Below, one piece after another: positions 2 through 13,225 of a stretch of DNA of 20,137 nucleotides. Every line of letters begins with the position of its first letter. Position 1 is the first letter of the stretch. This DNA is from a virus. The position numbers were made by a program, and so were the translations under genes. The notes under the pieces are model-generated. The model saw only the letters and a program-made list of their open reading frames with translations. It did not search any database and was not told the DNA's origin. Location: positions 1 to 20,137 of the IMG/VR virus record IMGVR_UViG_3300032093_001064. One strand, given 5' to 3'.

Positions 2-2760
2 TGAAATTAAATTACTAACAGTTGCTAATACACCTACACTTAAATTAGATGTGATTGTTGAATTACCAATTGTTTCATTATTTGCATTTATATTTCCTGA
101 AACAGATAATGATGCACCTGAAATTGCCTGAGTTGCGCTTATTACACCACTAGTCAATAAATTAGCACCTGTTACATTACCACTTGCGCTTATTAATCCA
201 GTGTTGATACTACCACTAGTTAAAGCACCAGTAGCACTTATTATTCCTGCAGTTCTTAAATTACCTGCCTGTACGTTCCCTGTTGCGCTTAATATTCCTG
301 TGTTTACATTAGCACCGGTAATATTACCCGTAGCACTAACTATACCACCTGTTAATAAATTACCACCAGTTATATTTGCATTAGCAGTAACGACATTTCC
401 TGCCCATTGTACTCCAACAATGTTTCCTATATTGGCATTTGGTGCGTTTACTTGCACTGCGGTTAATACATTACCTATTGTTGCATTAGTACTAACGGAT
501 AAATTACCGGTAACAGAAGTTGCTGCTTCACTTATTAAGACAACATTAGGAGCGCCATTAATAGTTATACCTACATTTCCAGATGAGGTTGGTATAGCAA
601 TATTAGATGTACCGTTGAAAACAGTGCCTCTTAGATTTCCAATAAAGTTGGTAGCGGTTATGTTAGCACCAGAAGAAATATTACCAGTAACGGATACAGA
701 GTTCCCTAATAAATTATTTCCTGTGATGTTTCCTGTAGCACTAATAGTTGCACTTGCTTGTAAATTATTAGCAACCACATTTCCTATTGCAGTTACATTA
801 GACGTTAAAACGTTATTTCCGACGTTAATGTCGCTAGTTATATTAGCAGTCACAGCATTAGCGTTTCCAAACACATTTAAGTTTTGACCTATTATGTTTC
901 CAGATGCACTTACTATCCCAGTTATAACATTAGCACTTATTAAGTTATTACCTATGGTTGCATTAGCAACTATATTTGCATTTTGAGCTGTAACATTTCC
1001 TACTGCGCTTATGATTCCGCCAGTTAAAATATTCTGACCTGTTATATTACCTGCTGCTGTAGCTTGTCCTGTTAAGGTTAAATTAGCACCACTTATATTA
1101 TTTGAAGTTGCTATGTTTCCTGATACACTAACTCCTGTAGTGGAAACAACTTGTATGTTAGCTGTGCCTGCAACACTTGTTCTTACGTTGCCATTAGGAT
1201 CAATAGAGATATTACTTGTGCCATTATTAATTTGACCTGTTGATCCAGTCAAAATACCAGTTAGAAATGCGCCATTACCATAAATATAATTTCCTGTAAC
1301 GTTTCCAATTGTAGTTAAGTTTCCACCAACTACATTTCCAGTTGCACTAACTAATCCGCCTGTGTTAATGTTTGCTGCTAATAAATTACCTGTTGCTGAA
1401 ATATTACCAGTGTTCACATTTGCACCAGTAATATTGCCACCAGCACTAACTTGACCAACTGCAGTAATACTTGATGTTGTTGTTATATTACCACTTGCAG
1501 AAATTGTTGTAACAGCAGCATTACCTATATTTGCATTACCAGTCATCACTACATTACCTGCAACCGATATTCCTGTATTAGTTACACTTAGTACGCTAGG
1601 AGTGCCACCCACACTTACTCTTACTGCACCATTTAAATCTGGTATTGCTATATTACTTGTACCATTAGTAATTGCTGTAACTGCAGCTGGGTTTATTCCT
1701 GTTAAATAGAAACCATTACCTACAAAATAATTTTGTGTTGCAATATTTCCTGTTGCCGTAATTGTATTTGCTAAAACTACGTTTGCTGAAACGCTTCCTG
1801 CAGTTGATATATTACCACCTGCTACATTGCCTGTTGAACTTATTAGAGTAGAAGCGAAAACGTTTGCTGATTGTACAGTAGTGGCATTTACTGTAGTAGC
1901 ATTTGCATTCCCTGTTGCTGATAAATTTTGACTGGATACGTTACCAGCTGTCGATAGATTCCCACCGGCTACGTTTCCTACGGCGCTTATTCCAGCAGCA
2001 GCAAATATACTTGAACCACGTAAATTACCTGTAGCACTTACTTGTCCACCTGTTAATAAATTAGCACCAGTTACATTTCCTGTTGTGCTAACATTGCCAC
2101 CAAAAACTGTTCCCGCTGCGCTTATGACATTACTTGCATTTAAATTATTTGCTAAAACATTACCTGTTATAGAAGCAATACCAGTCGCTCTTAAATTTCC
2201 TGCTTGTACATTGCCTGTTGCACTTACAAATGGAGTTTGTAGTGTGGTCGTTAAAGGATTAAATGTAAGGTTAGCACTTGCAGCAAAACCATCATTAAAG
2301 TTATATTGTATCCAATTATTTTCGCCTGCTGCTTCTGCAGTGCCTGCCCCGCCTCCCGGTGCCCAGCTTAAATTACCTAATCCATCAGTCGTTAGTGTAT
2401 AATCTGGATATCCGCCGTTTATTCTAACTTGACTTACATCACCTAAATTAGTAATACCATCAACTGTTAGTCCGGTAAGTGGACCTAATGTTGTAATATT
2501 AGGTTGATTAGATGCTGCAAAAGTAATCGTTGACGTTATGGTATTTGATGTTATGTTATCGTATATTAACGCATTATTTGCAGTTAAAGTATTACTAGCA
2601 ATACCATCTTGATCACTTGAAATAGATGTATTACCTAAATAGATCGTGTTCCCAGATAGATATAATGATCTCCATCTGTTATTAGGAGTTCCTAAATCAT
2701 ACTCAATATCTACTTGAGGGATCAAATTGCCCCTGACTGATCCTGTAACACTTAAATTAC
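2..2760 (-). repeat. Degenerate tandem coding repeats of the fibre shaft
   Basis: The shaft is built from many imperfect copies of a coding unit of roughly 30-60 bases (ISATGNVxGxNLxTxGx). Some copies are nearly identical in DNA, for example AATAAATTAGCACC on the plus strand at about 158 and again near 2056. Such repeats allow shaft length to change by recombination. They also suppress stop codons on the opposite strand and so create long antisense open frames. Confidence 0.8.
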
Positions 2761-3826
2761 CTACATTTGCGTTACCAATTGTATTAATGTTTCCAACTGT
2801 TGCTGTACCACCTGCACTAATTTGCCCAACAGTTCTTAAATTAGCACCAGTTACATTGCCACTAGCACTAATTGCTCCATTTGAATTTAGAGAACCTACG
2901 TTAGCAATACCTGTAGCCGAAATTACAGCGGTATAAACATTACCCAATGTTGCATTACCTGAGGAGCTTAATGTACCTTGTATGTTGGCGTTACCTGCTA
3001 AGCGTAGGTTACTTGTGGTTTTGTCGAATGTTAGATTGCCAGTTCCACCAAATGATCCGCCGGTATCTTGAAATTGAATTTGTGTATTAGAACCTCCCGG
3101 AGTTCCATCACCAGATTGATAGAATGATACAATTGCATTACCTGTGTTTGGATCAGCAGGAGTGAATCCGTAGCTATTAAGTGCTATGCTTAAGTTTTGA
3201 TTAGTGTAAAGTTCTACTTCTTTTGTGCTAATTTTCTTAGCATAATATTTATTAGTGCCGCCCTCACCTGAGTTAGCCAACTGTGTCATATTACCAACAC
3301 CAACGACGGTTATAGGAATGCCAGATGTAATATTGTTATCAGCCTTAGTTTTTAGAACAGCTATTAAAGCTTTGGTTACGCTTTCAATTTCAAAAGTAAA
3401 AACACCAGTGCTTTGCCATGATACGTTGCCAGTTCCGTCTGTAGTTAAAACGTAACCATTAAGACCGCCACGTAATGTAACATTGTTTGCGCTACCTAAA
3501 TCAATCTCTATATTAGAGTTTGCTCCAGCATTTACCCATGTATTTGCATTAGCAACCAATAATTGTCCATTTTGGACTGGAGAATTTAAATTTATTTGGG
3601 TGTTGGCCGTTCCTGCTATTTTTGACCAGTTTAACGATGAAACCTCAGTCAATATTTCTGTTTGGGTTGTAGTGTTTAAACCCTCTGGTGGATATAAACT
3701 AGGATCGTTTCCTATATATAATCTGCGCTCGTCTGTCGCAAATCCTAGCTCGCCCTCAGCTAGTTGGGGCAAGTCAACGTTAGCCCCTGTACGGTGTTGA
3801 ATCTTAGAAATCTGTATAATAGCCAT
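2..3826 (-). CDS. Very long repetitive tail fibre protein, C-terminus beyond window edge
   Basis: Reading the minus strand from ATG at 3826 gives 1275 codons without a stop, and the frame runs off the left edge. Residues 1-40 (IQHRTG, then LAEGELGFATDERRLYIGND) match the N-terminal domain of Mtd-type fibre proteins, which I take as the virion attachment end. Residues about 119-134 and 471-488 repeat a module with core LTTDGxGN(L/V)SW. A stretch near residues 365-395 (EYDLGTPNNRW, then LYLSGNTIYLG) is a common phage-fibre motif. From about residue 270 onward the protein is mostly a 10-20 residue repeat of the type SATGNVxGxNL, with three copies of a GTSNIxI module near residues 720, 866 and 1069. 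It is rich in Gly, Asn, Ala, Ser and Thr, as expected of a beta-rich trimeric shaft. A late promoter box lies 30 bases upstream. Receptor-binding residues are probably in the missing C-terminus. Confidence 0.85.
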   Translation of the reverse strand, partial: MAIIQISKIQHRTGANVDLPQLAEGELGFATDERRLYIGNDPSLYPPEGLNTTTQTEILTEVSSLNWSKIAGTANTQINLNSPVQNGQLLVANANTWVNAGANSNIEIDLGSANNVTLRGGLNGYVLTTDGTGNVSWQSTGVFTFEIESVTKALIAVLKTKADNNITSGIPITVVGVGNMTQLANSGEGGTNKYYAKKISTKEVELYTNQNLSIALNSYGFTPADPNTGNAIVSFYQSGDGTPGGSNTQIQFQDTGGSFGGTGNLTFDKTTSNLRLAGNANIQGTLSSSGNATLGNVYTAVISATGIANVGSLNSNGAISASGNVTGANLRTVGQISAGGTATVGNINTIGNANVGNLSVTGSVRGNLIPQVDIEYDLGTPNNRWRSLYLSGNTIYLGNTSISSDQDGIASNTLTANNALIYDNITSNTITSTITFAASNQPNITTLGPLTGLTVDGITNLGDVSQVRINGGYPDYTLTTDGLGNLSWAPGGGAGTAEAAGENNWIQYNFNDGFAASANLTFNPLTTTLQTPFVSATGNVQAGNLRATGIASITGNVLANNLNASNVISAAGTVFGGNVSTTGNVTGANLLTGGQVSATGNLRGSSIFAAAGISAVGNVAGGNLSTAGNVSSQNLSATGNANATTVNATTVQSANVFASTLISSTGNVAGGNISTAGSVSANVVLANTITATGNIATQNYFVGNGFYLTGINPAAVTAITNGTSNIAIPDLNGAVRVSVGGTPSVLSVTNTGISVAGNVVMTGNANIGNAAVTTISASGNITTTSSITAVGQVSAGGNITGANVNTGNISATGNLLAANINTGGLVSATGNVVGGNLTTIGNVTGNYIYGNGAFLTGILTGSTGQINNGTSNISIDPNGNVRTSVAGTANIQVVSTTGVSVSGNIATSNNISGANLTLTGQATAAGNITGQNILTGGIISAVGNVTAQNANIVANATIGNNLISANVITGIVSASGNIIGQNLNVFGNANAVTANITSDINVGNNVLTSNVTAIGNVVANNLQASATISATGNITGNNLLGNSVSVTGNISSGANITATNFIGNLRGTVFNGTSNIAIPTSSGNVGITINGAPNVVLISEAATSVTGNLSVSTNATIGNVLTAVQVNAPNANIGNIVGVQWAGNVVTANANITGGNLLTGGIVSATGNITGANVNTGILSATGNVQAGNLRTAGIISATGALTSGSINTGLISASGNVTGANLLTSGVISATQAISGASLSVSGNINANNETIGNSTITSNLSVGVLATVSNLIS

Positions 3827-3856: not shown

Positions 3857-3864
3857 TATTTATC
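3857..3864 (-). promoter_or_regulatory. T4-type late promoter box for the fibre gene
   Basis: The minus strand reads GATAAATA here, a T4-type late promoter -10 box, with 30 bases to the fibre ATG. The following bases (GTATAATCATCTTT) nearly match those after the late box at 5998-6005, so the initially transcribed region is also conserved. Confidence 0.75.
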
Positions 3865-3884: not shown

Positions 3885-4571
3885 CTATAGGAATTTTGAG
3901 TAATATTCGTCTAATTTTCGGAACCAAATGTCAGTGTACTTGTCAAATTCAGTGCCTTCAACAATAAATTCAAGGTACTGATTGTCAGCAGTACACATAA
4001 AAATAACACCTTTTTTAATTTTTGTTCCGTGAACTTCGTTATGTGCGTTTGCATATGCTGCTGATTGAATGAAATAATCTTCAATCCATTCTCGTTTTTT
4101 TACTTTGTTACTTTGCTTATGATCCATAATTGCTTCGTCACCGTCATGTATTCCACATAAGTCTGTAGTGCCTGCGTATATTTTTGGAAAATATAATGGA
4201 ACCTCTACACCCCACGCTTCATCAACATTACACAATCCTTTTTCAATAATAGATTTTGCCATAGTATGGCTTTGCACACTATAAGGATTACTACCAGGCT
4301 CTTTTAATATACCCTCTTTAATGTAATCCTCAATGAACTTATGCATACGTGTACCACGTCCTGCTGCTTCAGTGGTTATTTCTTGCGCACGTTTATGGCC
4401 CACACGATTGCGCCATTCCATTAGTGCTTTTTTAGATTCTTCTGATTTTGTTGCGTCAAGGATTGTTGTTACGCTAGGAAGTTTTTCTCCGTCTGGAGTG
4501 GCATATTTACGTGAGCCATCAATAGTTTCTTTACTGAATTTAACGTAGTTGAATTTATTTGGATTGTACAT
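3885..4571 (-). CDS. PD-(D/E)XK exonuclease (RecB/MGME1-like)
   Basis: A 228-aa protein with the layout of single-domain RecB-family nucleases. The sequence shows LPSVTTIL at 31-38 (N-terminal motif typical of MGME1-like phage exonucleases), GRGTRMH with H77, E123 in GVEVPL, GTTD with D137, the D150-H-K152 catalytic pair, and QSAAY at 169-173 (the Q-x3-Y motif). These are the expected metal and DNA-binding positions. Members degrade linear DNA or process ends, so roles in host DNA breakdown, recombination or replication-end processing are possible; the sequence does not decide among these. It is a single-gene unit with its own early promoter, placed between two late units. The ATG at 4571 is supported by the promoter spacing; no Shine-Dalgarno is visible. 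Confidence 0.85.
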   Translation of the reverse strand: MYNPNKFNYVKFSKETIDGSRKYATPDGEKLPSVTTILDATKSEESKKALMEWRNRVGHKRAQEITTEAAGRGTRMHKFIEDYIKEGILKEPGSNPYSVQSHTMAKSIIEKGLCNVDEAWGVEVPLYFPKIYAGTTDLCGIHDGDEAIMDHKQSNKVKKREWIEDYFIQSAAYANAHNEVHGTKIKKGVIFMCTADNQYLEFIVEGTEFDKYTDIWFRKLDEYYSKFL

Positions 4572-4577
4572 TAAAAG

Positions 4578-4606
4578 ATTGTATTACACTATTGCTAATA
4601 ATACAA
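4578..4606 (-). promoter_or_regulatory. Early sigma-70 promoter, predicted leaderless start
   Basis: Minus strand: TTGTAT (4601-4606), 17-base spacer, TACAAT (4578-4583), then six bases to the ATG at 4571. A start site about seven bases past the -10 box would fall on the start codon. The same geometry occurs upstream of three other early genes in the window. Confidence 0.7.
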
Positions 4607-4607
4607 T

Positions 4608-4934
4608 TTAAATGGTAAAACTTTCTCCACAACCACAACGTGCTTTTTCATTTGGATTAATAAAGTTAAATCCTTCATTCAATCCTTCACGTTTGTATTC
4701 CATAGTTAGACCTGTTACGTAAGGTAAATCTTTTTGATCAACTATGATGATAATATCATTGCTATTGTAACTCATAAAATTACCATTGGCTGGTAAATTA
4801 TCTACGTATTCTAATTTATAGGCAAGACCACTACATCCAGTAGTCTGAACTCCTATCATTATTCCTATACCTTTACCTCTGTTTGCAATTTTTTGTTTGA
4901 CTTTTTTTGCTGCGGTTTCAGTTAATGTAATCAT
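4608..4934 (-). CDS. iscA: IscA/HesB-type iron-sulfur cluster carrier
   Basis: A 108-aa A-type carrier protein of normal family length. The three conserved cysteines are present: C34 in TTGCSG and C100/C102 in the C-terminal CGCGESF motif (C35, C99 and C101 in E. coli IscA). These residues bind iron or a [2Fe-2S]/[4Fe-4S] cluster for delivery to apo-proteins in the cytoplasm. Its ATG overlaps the stop of the upstream 108-aa gene as TAATG, so it is translationally coupled and co-transcribed with that gene and the 236-aa gene from a late promoter. This suggests late delivery of clusters to a host or phage Fe-S protein, or a cluster-linked role in virion assembly. No cognate apo-protein is recognised in the window. 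The family call is secure; the phage role is open. Confidence 0.93.
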   Translation of the reverse strand: MITLTETAAKKVKQKIANRGKGIGIMIGVQTTGCSGLAYKLEYVDNLPANGNFMSYNSNDIIIIVDQKDLPYVTGLTMEYKREGLNEGFNFINPNEKARCGCGESFTI

Positions 4935-5260
4935 TATTTGTCGCTTGCTCGTTGAGCCATTTTTGCTACAGTTTTTTCTTTTTCATCGGGACTTGTTGGC
5001 ATTTTATCTGTCTGTTTTTGTCCTTTAAAAAAGACTTCATCGCCTTTAACATCATCTATGATGTTTACTAAAGGCTCTTTTGAAATCATGTCTCTCAAAT
5101 CACTTATGTCTACACTGATATCATTATCATTAAGTAATTGCAAGAATGAGTCTACTGACATTGGTTTATTTGAATGTTGGTAGCGGTCTTTAAGTTGGTC
5201 GGTTATAGCGACCAACTTAACTCTTAAAGGATCGTCGTTTACAAATTCAAATAAACGCAT
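4934..5260 (-). CDS. Unknown 108-aa phage protein, late unit
   Basis: I do not recognise a defined domain. The N-terminus MRLFEFVNDDPLRVKLVAI resembles short conserved proteins of marine T4-like phages as I remember them. The middle is helical and acidic (LLNDNDISVDISDLRDMI), and the C-terminal 30 residues are charged and probably disordered. It starts two bases after the stop of the 236-aa gene and ends in a TAATG overlap with iscA, so it is the middle gene of a three-gene late unit. A virion or assembly role is inferred from context only. Confidence 0.75.
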   Translation of the reverse strand: MRLFEFVNDDPLRVKLVAITDQLKDRYQHSNKPMSVDSFLQLLNDNDISVDISDLRDMISKEPLVNIIDDVKGDEVFFKGQKQTDKMPTSPDEKEKTVAKMAQRASDK

Positions 5261-5262
5261 TA

Positions 5263-5973
5263 TTATCTTTTTCCGCGACCTATACTTGGGGCAGGTACTT
5301 CTTCATCTTCTGGTGGTGTTGGTAATTCTTCTGCATCCTGTGCCATAGCGTCAACTTCACCGCCCATTTCAGGTTCACCCATGCCACCTGCCATACCCAT
5401 TCCAGGCATACCAGCAAAGCCAGCACCGTCACCTTTTACGATACCCAATGCACTTTGTAATCCTGCTTTAGATTGAGTTAATGCAGCCTGTAATCCAGTT
5501 AATGATTCTGTTGCAGCACTATTGAACTGTTCACCAACTTCATCACCCTTTTCTCCGCTAACACTTTCTACAACAGCAGGCAATTCCTTAACTAACATGT
5601 CAGAAACATCTTCAATCATTTTCTGAATGCTGTCAATCATGTCCTTTGCTGCTAATATTACCTGTGCTTCTTCAATTGCCTCATCTTCAAAAACAATTTT
5701 TGCATTGTATTTTGGCTGTGCTTTTAATTCATTGTAGTAGTCAGAAAGTGCTTGTTCCATAAACACTAGCTTTAGGTATTGTGGGTTATTTTCGCTAGAA
5801 TAATACATTCTGTCGCTGTCCTTAACTTCACTCATTAAGGATCTTACTCTACCCAACATGCTTTTGGTAGCACTTAGGTCTAATTTTTCAAGTGCTAGAT
5901 CAGTATTAAAGTTCTCTTTAAGAGCTTTTTTTGCCATTGTGTAGGGCTTTTGGTTAAATTCTGTAAGTTTCAT
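5263..5973 (-). CDS. Putative late virion-associated or assembly protein, 236 aa
   Basis: Residues 1-150 are strongly helical and charged (for example KLDLSATKSMLGRVRSLMSE). Residues 150-190 are small-residue helix. The tail is Gly/Met-rich (GMPGMGMAGGMGEPEMGG) and then acidic and Pro-rich, ending in a basic IGRGKR. This helical body with a flexible low-complexity C-terminus suggests a scaffold-like or internal virion protein; I recall similar proteins annotated as structural in marine T4-like phages. It is the first gene of a late unit with iscA and has a late box 25 bases upstream. No enzymatic motif is visible. Confidence 0.7.
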   Translation of the reverse strand: MKLTEFNQKPYTMAKKALKENFNTDLALEKLDLSATKSMLGRVRSLMSEVKDSDRMYYSSENNPQYLKLVFMEQALSDYYNELKAQPKYNAKIVFEDEAIEEAQVILAAKDMIDSIQKMIEDVSDMLVKELPAVVESVSGEKGDEVGEQFNSAATESLTGLQAALTQSKAGLQSALGIVKGDGAGFAGMPGMGMAGGMGEPEMGGEVDAMAQDAEELPTPPEDEEVPAPSIGRGKR

Positions 5974-5997: not shown

Positions 5998-6005
5998 TAT
6001 TTATC
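5998..6005 (-). promoter_or_regulatory. T4-type late promoter box for the 236-aa/108-aa/iscA unit
   Basis: The minus strand reads GATAAATA, 25 bases before ATG 5973. The next bases (CTATATCATCTTTCGGG) closely match those after the fibre-gene late box. Confidence 0.75.
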
Positions 6006-6950: not shown

Positions 6951-6955
6951 GAGGT

Positions 6956-6984
6956 AAAAAAGCCCGCAGAATTTGCGGGCTTTT
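6956..6984 (-). terminator. Strong Rho-independent terminator after the 123-aa gene
   Basis: An 11-bp stem (arms 6958-6968 and 6974-6984, GC core GCCCGCA/TGCGGGC, 5-base loop) is followed on the minus strand by T6 (6956-6961). It ends the single-gene 123-aa unit. The plus strand has only four T residues, so the reverse direction is weaker. Confidence 0.92.
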
Positions 6985-7001
6985 GTTAAAACTAATTCAA
7001 A

Positions 7002-11718: not shown

Positions 11719-12096
11719 ATGAAAAACGACTTTTTTAAGAAATTATCAGAAAACCACCCTTTTATTACAGTATGCTCCTACTCCGGTCAGGATTATGTTG
11801 GAATTATTCAAAACAGAGATGATGTTGTTACTACTTTGTATGATTATGGATCAATTATAGAATCAGAGCTTAGAGAAAAATTTCTAGAATTAGGAGAAAT
11901 TTGGTGGTGGGAAAGTAACAGACTTATTCCAATTAATATGTTTTTAAGGGTAGAATGGGCTACTTTTAAACCATATTTGCGTACATTCAATAACAAGAGT
12001 CTAGAAATTATACATGGACCTATTTGTAGCATAAGTGATCTTAGCAAGAAAAAGACCAAAAGACGCAGCATTACTTTAGTACAAAGAATGAATTAA
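11719..12096 (+). CDS. Unknown conserved 125-aa protein, only plus-strand gene
   Basis: No domain is recognised. It has an aromatic-rich core (ITVCSYSGQDYVGIIQNRD, LGEIWWWESNRLIPINMFL, WATFKPYLRTF) and a basic C-terminus (KKKTKRRSITLVQRM). The regular composition and well-placed late box make it a real gene rather than an antisense shadow. I recall similar proteins in marine T4-like phages, without a function. It converges on the DnaE-like gene with the two stop codons overlapping, so late expression of this gene produces RNA antisense to an early unit unless a terminator intervenes. Confidence 0.82.
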   Translation: MKNDFFKKLSENHPFITVCSYSGQDYVGIIQNRDDVVTTLYDYGSIIESELREKFLELGEIWWWESNRLIPINMFLRVEWATFKPYLRTFNNKSLEIIHGPICSISDLSKKKTKRRSITLVQRMN

Positions 12097-12662
12097 TTTC
12101 TCTCTAATAAGTTCATATGTACGACCACTAAATGTGCGTATGCAACACTATGACTTTTCTTAAAACTATACCCGTCGTCGGTTTTATCCCAAACAGTTTT
12201 AGATACTTCAGACCAATTTTTTCCTAATAGATGTTTTTTAGCAGGTCTAATACAGGCCAAAAACATTGCAAGTCTAGGGATACTATTTACAGGCTCTGGC
12301 ATTTTCTGTAAATTATTATAATGATTTCCCAAATGAACTAATTGTTCTACAAAATCTCTTTTTTGTAGTAGATTCCAGTTTGGTTCCTTCATTAATTCAA
12401 TTAATTCTGCTTCTGATTTTATTTGATCGTAAACATGTACGTTAAGAAAATCTAATTTTATATAGCCACGTTCTTCGGCTTCAGTATAATCAATGTTTGC
12501 CATATCATTTAGCGCATCATATGGAACTTCTGTAACATGGACTCCTGTATTGTGTTTACGCATAGGTGTGACATTACGCATGGCAGCAGGAACATATTTA
12601 ATATGCTCTAATATCAAATCACGATTACCAAAATCAATGTCAATGTCTGACTTGAATTTCAT
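12093..12662 (-). CDS. Condensed DnaE-like protein (Pol III alpha active-site segments), 189 aa
   Basis: Short segments match, in order, the polymerase core of bacterial DnaE, which normally exceeds 1000 aa. SDIDIDFGNRDLILEH at 5-20 corresponds to the PDFDVDF motif that holds two catalytic Asp in E. coli (here D6 and D8, with D10). HNTGVHV at 37-43 resembles the HxAGVVI strand. GYIKLDFLNV at 67-75 resembles VKFDFLGL and keeps the third catalytic Asp (D71). YSFKKSHSVAYAHL at 165-178 resembles YGFNKSHAAAYALL of the fingers. The PHP, thumb, beta-binding and OB regions are absent, so this is an internally condensed relative, not a C-terminal fragment. ATGA overlap couples it to the exonuclease upstream. 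Whether it polymerises DNA, binds nucleotides or DNA, or is regulatory is not known. The gene is certain; the homology is my motif reading. Confidence 0.7.
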   Translation of the reverse strand: MKFKSDIDIDFGNRDLILEHIKYVPAAMRNVTPMRKHNTGVHVTEVPYDALNDMANIDYTEAEERGYIKLDFLNVHVYDQIKSEAELIELMKEPNWNLLQKRDFVEQLVHLGNHYNNLQKMPEPVNSIPRLAMFLACIRPAKKHLLGKNWSEVSKTVWDKTDDGYSFKKSHSVAYAHLVVVHMNLLERN

Positions 12663-13225
12663 TTTAAAGCAAACCCCTTGTCCATCAATTTCTTATATGC
12701 ATCCTGCACAACCAATGCTTGATGTTCTGCATCTTCTACGGCTTTGTGAGTTGTTTTGGTGCCATATTTTTTATCTTTGAGACTGACACCTGCTATCTCA
12801 AACAATGTTCTAGTATCACGTACTGTGTAGAAAGGCCACGGAATAGGGTTAGGTCTATCCGTCAATGTTTGACGCATTGCTGTTTCCATTACTACTACGT
12901 CAAATGGTGCACCATGGCTCCATACTGCTTTTCTGTTCCAGCAAAAACTATATAACTTTTCCATACAATCTTTAAGTGATTCTCTACCCCAATCGCCCAT
13001 TGCTTCTTCCATTGCTGAAGAATTTTGTGTACTCCACCAACGAATAGTATCATCATTAATAATTCTATTGTATTGTTCAGTTTGATCTTCTAATGTAGGA
13101 CGTAGTTCTAGTTTTTCTACAATGCCATCACCTCTAGGATCAAATCTGACTGCACCAATAGTTAGGATCACACAGTACGGGCTTGTGTCCAAACTCTCAA
13201 TGTCAATCATAATATCATTTGCCAT
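12659..13225 (-). CDS. dexA: DEDDh 3'-5' exonuclease (DexA / Rv2179c-like)
   Basis: A 188-aa DnaQ-superfamily exonuclease. Motif Exo I is MIDIES with D8 and E10, Exo II is WSHGAPFDVVV with D109, and Exo III is THKAVEDAEHQA with H160 and D165, the DEDDh pattern. Family members, including T4 DexA, remove nucleotides from 3' ends of DNA or RNA with two metal ions. It overlaps the 62-aa gene by 11 bases upstream and the DnaE-like gene by four bases downstream. Being next to and coupled with a DnaE-like protein recalls the alpha-epsilon pairing of bacterial Pol III, which is an inference. The ATG at 13225 lies within the 62-aa coding end. Confidence 0.88.
   Translation of the reverse strand: MANDIMIDIESLDTSPYCVILTIGAVRFDPRGDGIVEKLELRPTLEDQTEQYNRIINDDTIRWWSTQNSSAMEEAMGDWGRESLKDCMEKLYSFCWNRKAVWSHGAPFDVVVMETAMRQTLTDRPNPIPWPFYTVRDTRTLFEIAGVSLKDKKYGTKTTHKAVEDAEHQALVVQDAYKKLMDKGFALK

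Follow-up and report, generated by a model that had tools for sequence, protein, structure and literature searches.

An IscA-Type Iron–Sulfur Carrier in a Putative Late Transcription Unit of a Jumbo T4-like Phage Lineage, with Phage Radical-SAM Enzymes as Candidate Clients

Introduction

Genes for iron–sulfur (Fe–S) cluster assembly have precedents in phages. The portions of Nishimura et al. 2017 (PMC5332604) drawn on here describe T4-like marine viral genomes in which an A-type carrier and/or IscU is accompanied by as many as 12 radical-SAM genes; the authors suggest that host and viral Fe–S proteins alike are served by these assembly proteins. A precedent of another kind comes from the virion itself, where the late tail tip protein gpL of lambda and the tip protein of RcGTA carry Fe–S clusters (PMC10721106).

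Here we analyse an iscA gene in a virus DNA window, by which we mean the whole 20,137-bp stretch of IMG/VR record IMGVR_UViG_3300032093_001064 (positions 1 to 20,137). The window carries T4-like replication genes (gp41 helicase, gp61 primase, and a UvsW-type helicase), and the isolates closest to its phage are the jumbo phages PA5oct, Phosso, and Atu_ph07. The gene order resembles that of PA5oct gp260–gp244 (NC_071039), in which the gp41 helicase, virion protein genes, an orf236 homologue, and an exonuclease follow one another in the same order; unlike the window, however, the PA5oct genome has no iscA, even though the orf236 homologue is present.

The present case belongs to the kind published in 2017, namely phage A-type carriers accompanied by sets of radical-SAM genes. 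Relative to the genomes as presented in those portions of PMC5332604, the window lineage is set apart by its proximity to PA5oct, Phosso, and Atu_ph07, by a carrier gene in a slot that appears to end a late unit with an early-type promoter behind it, and by relatives that have an iscU–radical-SAM–iscA operon and late motifs on their radical-SAM units. Beyond that text, the analysis adds a probable regulatory class for the carrier and its clients, describes the accessory slot and the operon that encloses a radical-SAM gene, and gives evidence against clients among the adjacent virion proteins. The putative late iscA unit also invites comparison with lambda gpL; unlike that system, no such protein was identified at the iscA locus, and the neighbouring proteins lack conserved cysteines.

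The IscA Protein

The iscA gene (4608..4934, minus strand) encodes a protein of 108 amino acids that scores 57.2 bits against Pfam Fe-S_biosyn (PF01521), well over the curated cut-off of 26.3. The original prediction had noted all three cluster-binding cysteines, and these residues, C34 and the CGC at 100–102, proved invariant in 34/34 dereplicated phage homologues. Among the NCBIfam subtypes, TIGR02011 (129.7 bits) ranks ahead of SufA (92) and ErpA (62), though this top-ranking score stays under the TIGR02011 equivalog cut-off of 150.6. The closest solved structures are those of E. coli IscA (listed as YfhF; 1r94 and 1s98, ~4e-30), with which the phage protein aligns across residues 2–107 and shares family, length, and the three-cysteine motif. 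Unlike bacterial IscA, the phage gene lies outside any iscRSUA-hscBA-fdx operon, and the phage copies score below the equivalog cut-off and fall into one clade: in a tree of 56 sequences, all 34 sit on one side of a branch with support of 98/96, and the neighbours of this clade are beta- and gamma-proteobacterial IscA.

Purifying selection acts on the intact gene, with dN/dS values of 0.04–0.15 where dS was estimable. Judged by its sequence, the window gene encodes a true A-type carrier of the IscA subtype, and we infer that the protein acts as a cluster carrier. A tblastn search of IscA against phage isolates returned for the most part records that were short, unannotated, or apparently of bacterial origin, plus two metagenomic large phages, and was not used.

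The Late Unit and Its Promoters

All features of the unit lie on the minus strand. A late-type promoter motif, GATAAATA (5998..6005), stands 25 nt upstream of orf236 (5263..5973), just outside the interval 4608–5973 that the original prediction had covered. The next gene, orf108 (4934..5260), starts 2 nt after orf236 and is followed by iscA through a TAATG in which the orf108 stop and the iscA start overlap (4932..4936); this coupling, too, had been predicted and was read in the sequence.

The bare NATAAATA count in the window shows no excess over chance, with 6 occurrences on that strand against ~8 expected; the count was therefore dropped as evidence for late promoters and positional conservation used in its place. 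The motif is found upstream of orf236 in 43/52 upstream regions of distinct relatives, at a median of 25 nt, in keeping with the predicted late promoter of the unit. It likewise precedes orf86 in 12/14 relatives and the tail fibre gene in 45/48, the window copy of the latter being GATAAATA at 3857..3864 (minus strand). Directly upstream of gp41, gp61, exo298, iscA, and orf108, no late-type motif was found among the relatives. The tail fibre itself (2..3826, minus strand) has an Mtd_N domain (PF18454) and long SATGNV-type repeats, runs off the window, and reaches up to 3,072 aa in relatives.

A T4 gp55-family late sigma factor is encoded by a 223-kb relative with window-like synteny, and members of this family (phrog_12791, phrog_234) occur in 12/13 related records; the window record itself spans only 20 kb. 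Given the conserved motif position and the gp55-type sigma factor in the long relative, late switching-on of the orf236–orf108–iscA unit is well supported at the level of sequence, and the late timing of the original prediction stands, helped by the absence of a promoter of its own before iscA.

The promoter behind the unit appears to be of a different class. Sigma70-type promoters were scored against TTGACA-17-TATAAT, out of 12, with a match defined as at least 9. The exo298 leader holds such a promoter in 68/89 distinct relatives, compared with 10% of shuffled sequences; in the window, the copy (TTGTAT, 17 nt, TACAAT; 4578..4606, minus strand) scores 8/12 by hand count and is weaker than those of many relatives. 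In the exo298 leader, the -10 hexamer lies ~8 nt ahead of the ATG, and a nearly leaderless transcript is thus possible. Upstream of orf108, none of 77 regions from relatives reached 9, and upstream of iscA only 1/64 did so (60 nt), on which ground an early promoter for iscA was rejected; in the window itself, two score-9 matches lie within orf108, 66 and 150 nt ahead of the iscA start and thus beyond the 60 nt covered in the relatives. With a late motif before orf236 and a sigma70-type promoter behind iscA, the carrier gene would be the last of the late unit, and directly behind it would begin an early-type unit headed by exo298.

In a subset of loci (L218, L260, L274, L276, L279), a near-perfect dyad, TTGTACTAC...GTAGTACAA, extends across the -35 and -10 hexamers of the exo298 leader, which suggests an operator. 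A G+C-rich hairpin with a T run lies between orf123 and orf150 of the window (6953–6990), directly followed by TATAAATA six nt from the orf150 start; this arrangement looks like a terminator and then a late promoter.

The Neighbouring Proteins

Orf236 is a helical protein with an acidic, disordered C-terminal tail. All 33 of the orf236 family members searched match phrog_14154, and hhalign pairs the protein at 96.9% with PA5oct gp247, which is annotated as a virion structural protein with ESI-MS/MS; its AlphaFold model (mean pLDDT 76.3) found only uncharacterised phage proteins in a fold search. Orf236 is thus, by homology, a probable virion protein, and to this extent the virion-type neighbours of the original prediction hold. 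The same cannot be said of orf108, a conserved small protein present in nearly all syntenic loci, for which family searches returned no consistent family.

In alignments, conserved cysteines are absent from 39 orf236 and from 31 orf108 sequences, and the adjacent virion proteins were set aside as IscA clients for that reason. Downstream of iscA, exo298 (3885..4571, minus strand; phrog_298, 2.4e-55) encodes a PD-(D/E)XK-type exonuclease that forms the downstream edge of the accessory slot. It was considered as a client in the form of a Cas4-like Fe–S nuclease and ruled out, since a protein with a single invariant cysteine is not a Cas4-type Fe–S nuclease.

Elsewhere in the window, a 189-aa protein (12093–12662) matches solely DNA polymerase fragment families (best phrog_11778) and adjoins a separate ORF with an exonuclease domain (12659–13225); together they are possibly a split DNA polymerase.

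An Accessory Slot with Mobile Cargo

With exo298 as the anchor, we surveyed 117 loci that span the whole interval from orf236/orf108 to exo298. The iscA gene is present in 88 of these and missing in 29, and the two sets comprise 70 and 23 distinct exo298 proteins, respectively. Most of the iscA-free loci keep orf108 and a leader of 29–68 nt, and two (L269, L271) have no called orf108. Other cargo of the slot includes iscU and a 2OG-Fe(II) oxygenase (PF13759), along with glycosyltransferase-like, SGNH-hydrolase-like, and HNH-like proteins judged by sequence only.

Two sets of relatives, here called group 2 and group 3, carry iscA in other arrangements. In group 2, an orf108-like gene follows orf236 and is itself followed by iscU, a B12-binding radical-SAM gene, iscA, and exo298, with the ends of the genes from iscU to the exonuclease mostly overlapping or nearly abutting. 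In group 3, iscU and iscA follow ribonucleotide reductase and glutaredoxin, several loci also have a PAAR-like gene (by sequence only), and neither orf236 nor orf108 was found nearby. At most loci where iscU and iscA lie outside an orf236 unit, a late motif was not found directly upstream.

Between window IscA and the copies of groups 2 and 3, identity is mostly 66–71% (59% for L043), against 50–57% for exo298 and about 28% for orf236; conversely, window IscA is just 50–60% identical to that of 72 relatives whose median exo298 identity is 76%. Identities so far out of step imply that iscA has moved between phages independently of the adjoining virion genes. These comparisons mark iscA as mobile cargo of an accessory slot that appears to lie between a late unit and the early-type exo298 promoter.

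Three long records (G025, 303 kb; G029, 524 kb; G032, 352 kb) have two or three IscA copies each. IscU matches interrupted by in-frame stop codons were recorded in G025 and G029; a decayed copy, a faulty assembly, or recoding could account for these.

IscU and Radical-SAM Genes in Relatives

The phage IscU passes the TIGR01999 cut-off and retains C37, D39, C64, H106, C107, and the LPPVK motif that binds HscA. It was found in group 2, in group 3, and in some exo-anchored relatives, and not in the window-like records searched, the 223-kb one included; in these window-like records, the carrier, if it works there, must draw on host clusters.

The original prediction left the client protein open and proposed a search of the rest of the genome for Fe–S proteins. 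Profile searches detected no radical-SAM gene within the 20-kb window. The 223-kb relative with window-like synteny has two such genes, and other relatives have many: 17 in the 221-kb record, 13 in one of 127 kb, 19 in one of 303 kb, and 16 in one of 352 kb; the maximum among records that carry iscA is 19. The group 2 radical-SAM protein, of 560–580 aa, combines PF02310 with PF04055, and three submitted radical-SAM proteins, one of them from the 223-kb relative, pass the NCBIfam twitch-domain model NF033640.

The two radical-SAM genes of the 223-kb relative share a unit whose first gene is preceded at 16 nt by TATAAATA, and in the 221-kb relative NATAAATA stands 4–5 nt before the head gene in 3/5 resolved radical-SAM units. 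Over both records, the late motif heads 4/6 units, with an expectation of ~0.007 per 40-nt window. In the relatives examined, the carrier and its likely clients thus seem to share the late class. L123 and L124 (G009:140001-180000) are densely packed with radical-SAM genes, interspersed with accessory ones, and many unit heads there have NATAAATA just 4–5 nt from the ATG, as if the late transcripts were leaderless.

Counting only records of 100 kb or more, the iscA-positive ones together have 104 radical-SAM genes over 2.77 Mb, compared with 8 in 1.60 Mb for four iscA-negative isolates. The rank test gave p 0.03, or 0.05 without near-duplicates and 0.09 when iscA-selected records were also dropped, on records that are not independent and whose hosts differ; after both removals, the enrichment is weak. 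Phosso and Atu_ph07 each have 4 radical-SAM genes without iscA, so a phage IscA is not strictly required. In several iscA-positive fragments of 88–111 kb, no radical-SAM gene was detected, which makes the association uninformative in short records.

Discussion

Taken together, these data make it somewhat more probable than its negation that iscA encodes a functional carrier, made with the late unit, that supplies phage radical-SAM enzymes. In the mechanism we propose, an IscA-type carrier of a jumbo T4-like phage lineage, encoded in an accessory slot that ends a late transcription unit, would be loaded with Fe–S clusters by the host ISC machinery (or, in relatives that encode it, by phage IscU) and would pass these on, during the second half of infection, to radical-SAM enzymes of the phage, some of them likewise encoded in late units. 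We infer the cluster source, the delivery to radical-SAM enzymes, and the extension of the same logic to the window's phage. A stronger version is less likely than not: a dedicated late-phase supply line, comprising the carrier with or without IscU under a T4-type late promoter, that loads co-expressed radical-SAM enzymes, with iscU–(B12 radical SAM)–iscA as a carrier–client module and IscA specific to its enzyme.

A-type carriers are broad in specificity, and the phage protein might instead sustain decaying host Fe–S proteins of respiration and metabolism through a long infection, as an auxiliary metabolic gene without a dedicated phage client. The presence of iscA in records with no detected radical-SAM gene would fit such a role, as would the window-like relatives searched, which lack iscU and would need host clusters. 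Late expression, however, suits host maintenance poorly, and the group 2 radical-SAM gene sits between iscU and iscA; we regard this explanation as rather unlikely. Still further from the data is the passenger idea, in which iscA would be drifting cargo without selected function: the slot is permissive, holding varied accessory genes or none, and iscA has been exchanged between phages, but the low dN/dS, the invariance of the ligands in all 34 homologues, and the occupancy of 88 of the 117 loci leave it very improbable.

The original prediction had favoured a cluster needed in assembly, and IscA might indeed mature the cluster of a virion protein, as for the lambda tail-tip gpL. In its favour, iscA is translated together with orf236, whose PA5oct homologue is a virion protein, and Fe–S clusters do occur in gpL and the RcGTA tip protein (PMC10721106). 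Against it, orf236 and orf108 have no conserved cysteine and exo298 has only one; 29 of the 117 syntenic loci keep the orf236/orf108 neighbours without iscA; PA5oct has the same gene order and no iscA; and group 3 phages carry iscA elsewhere, beside iscU and away from these neighbours, an arrangement that the original prediction itself had named among its grounds for refutation. We consider this explanation improbable; in a variant of it, the virion client would be encoded far from iscA. Of the original interpretation, the late timing is retained and the assembly role is not.

Most plausibly, then, the clients of IscA are phage radical-SAM enzymes rather than the adjacent virion proteins. The question of the client, which the original prediction had left open, thereby becomes testable, with radical-SAM enzymes as the leading candidates, and a timing argument is gained for carrier and clients alike. 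Adjacency to virion genes can stem from an accessory slot and not from a role in assembly, and the relatives with iscU, a radical-SAM gene, and iscA in a row may serve as compact systems in which to ask about the client specificity of A-type carriers.
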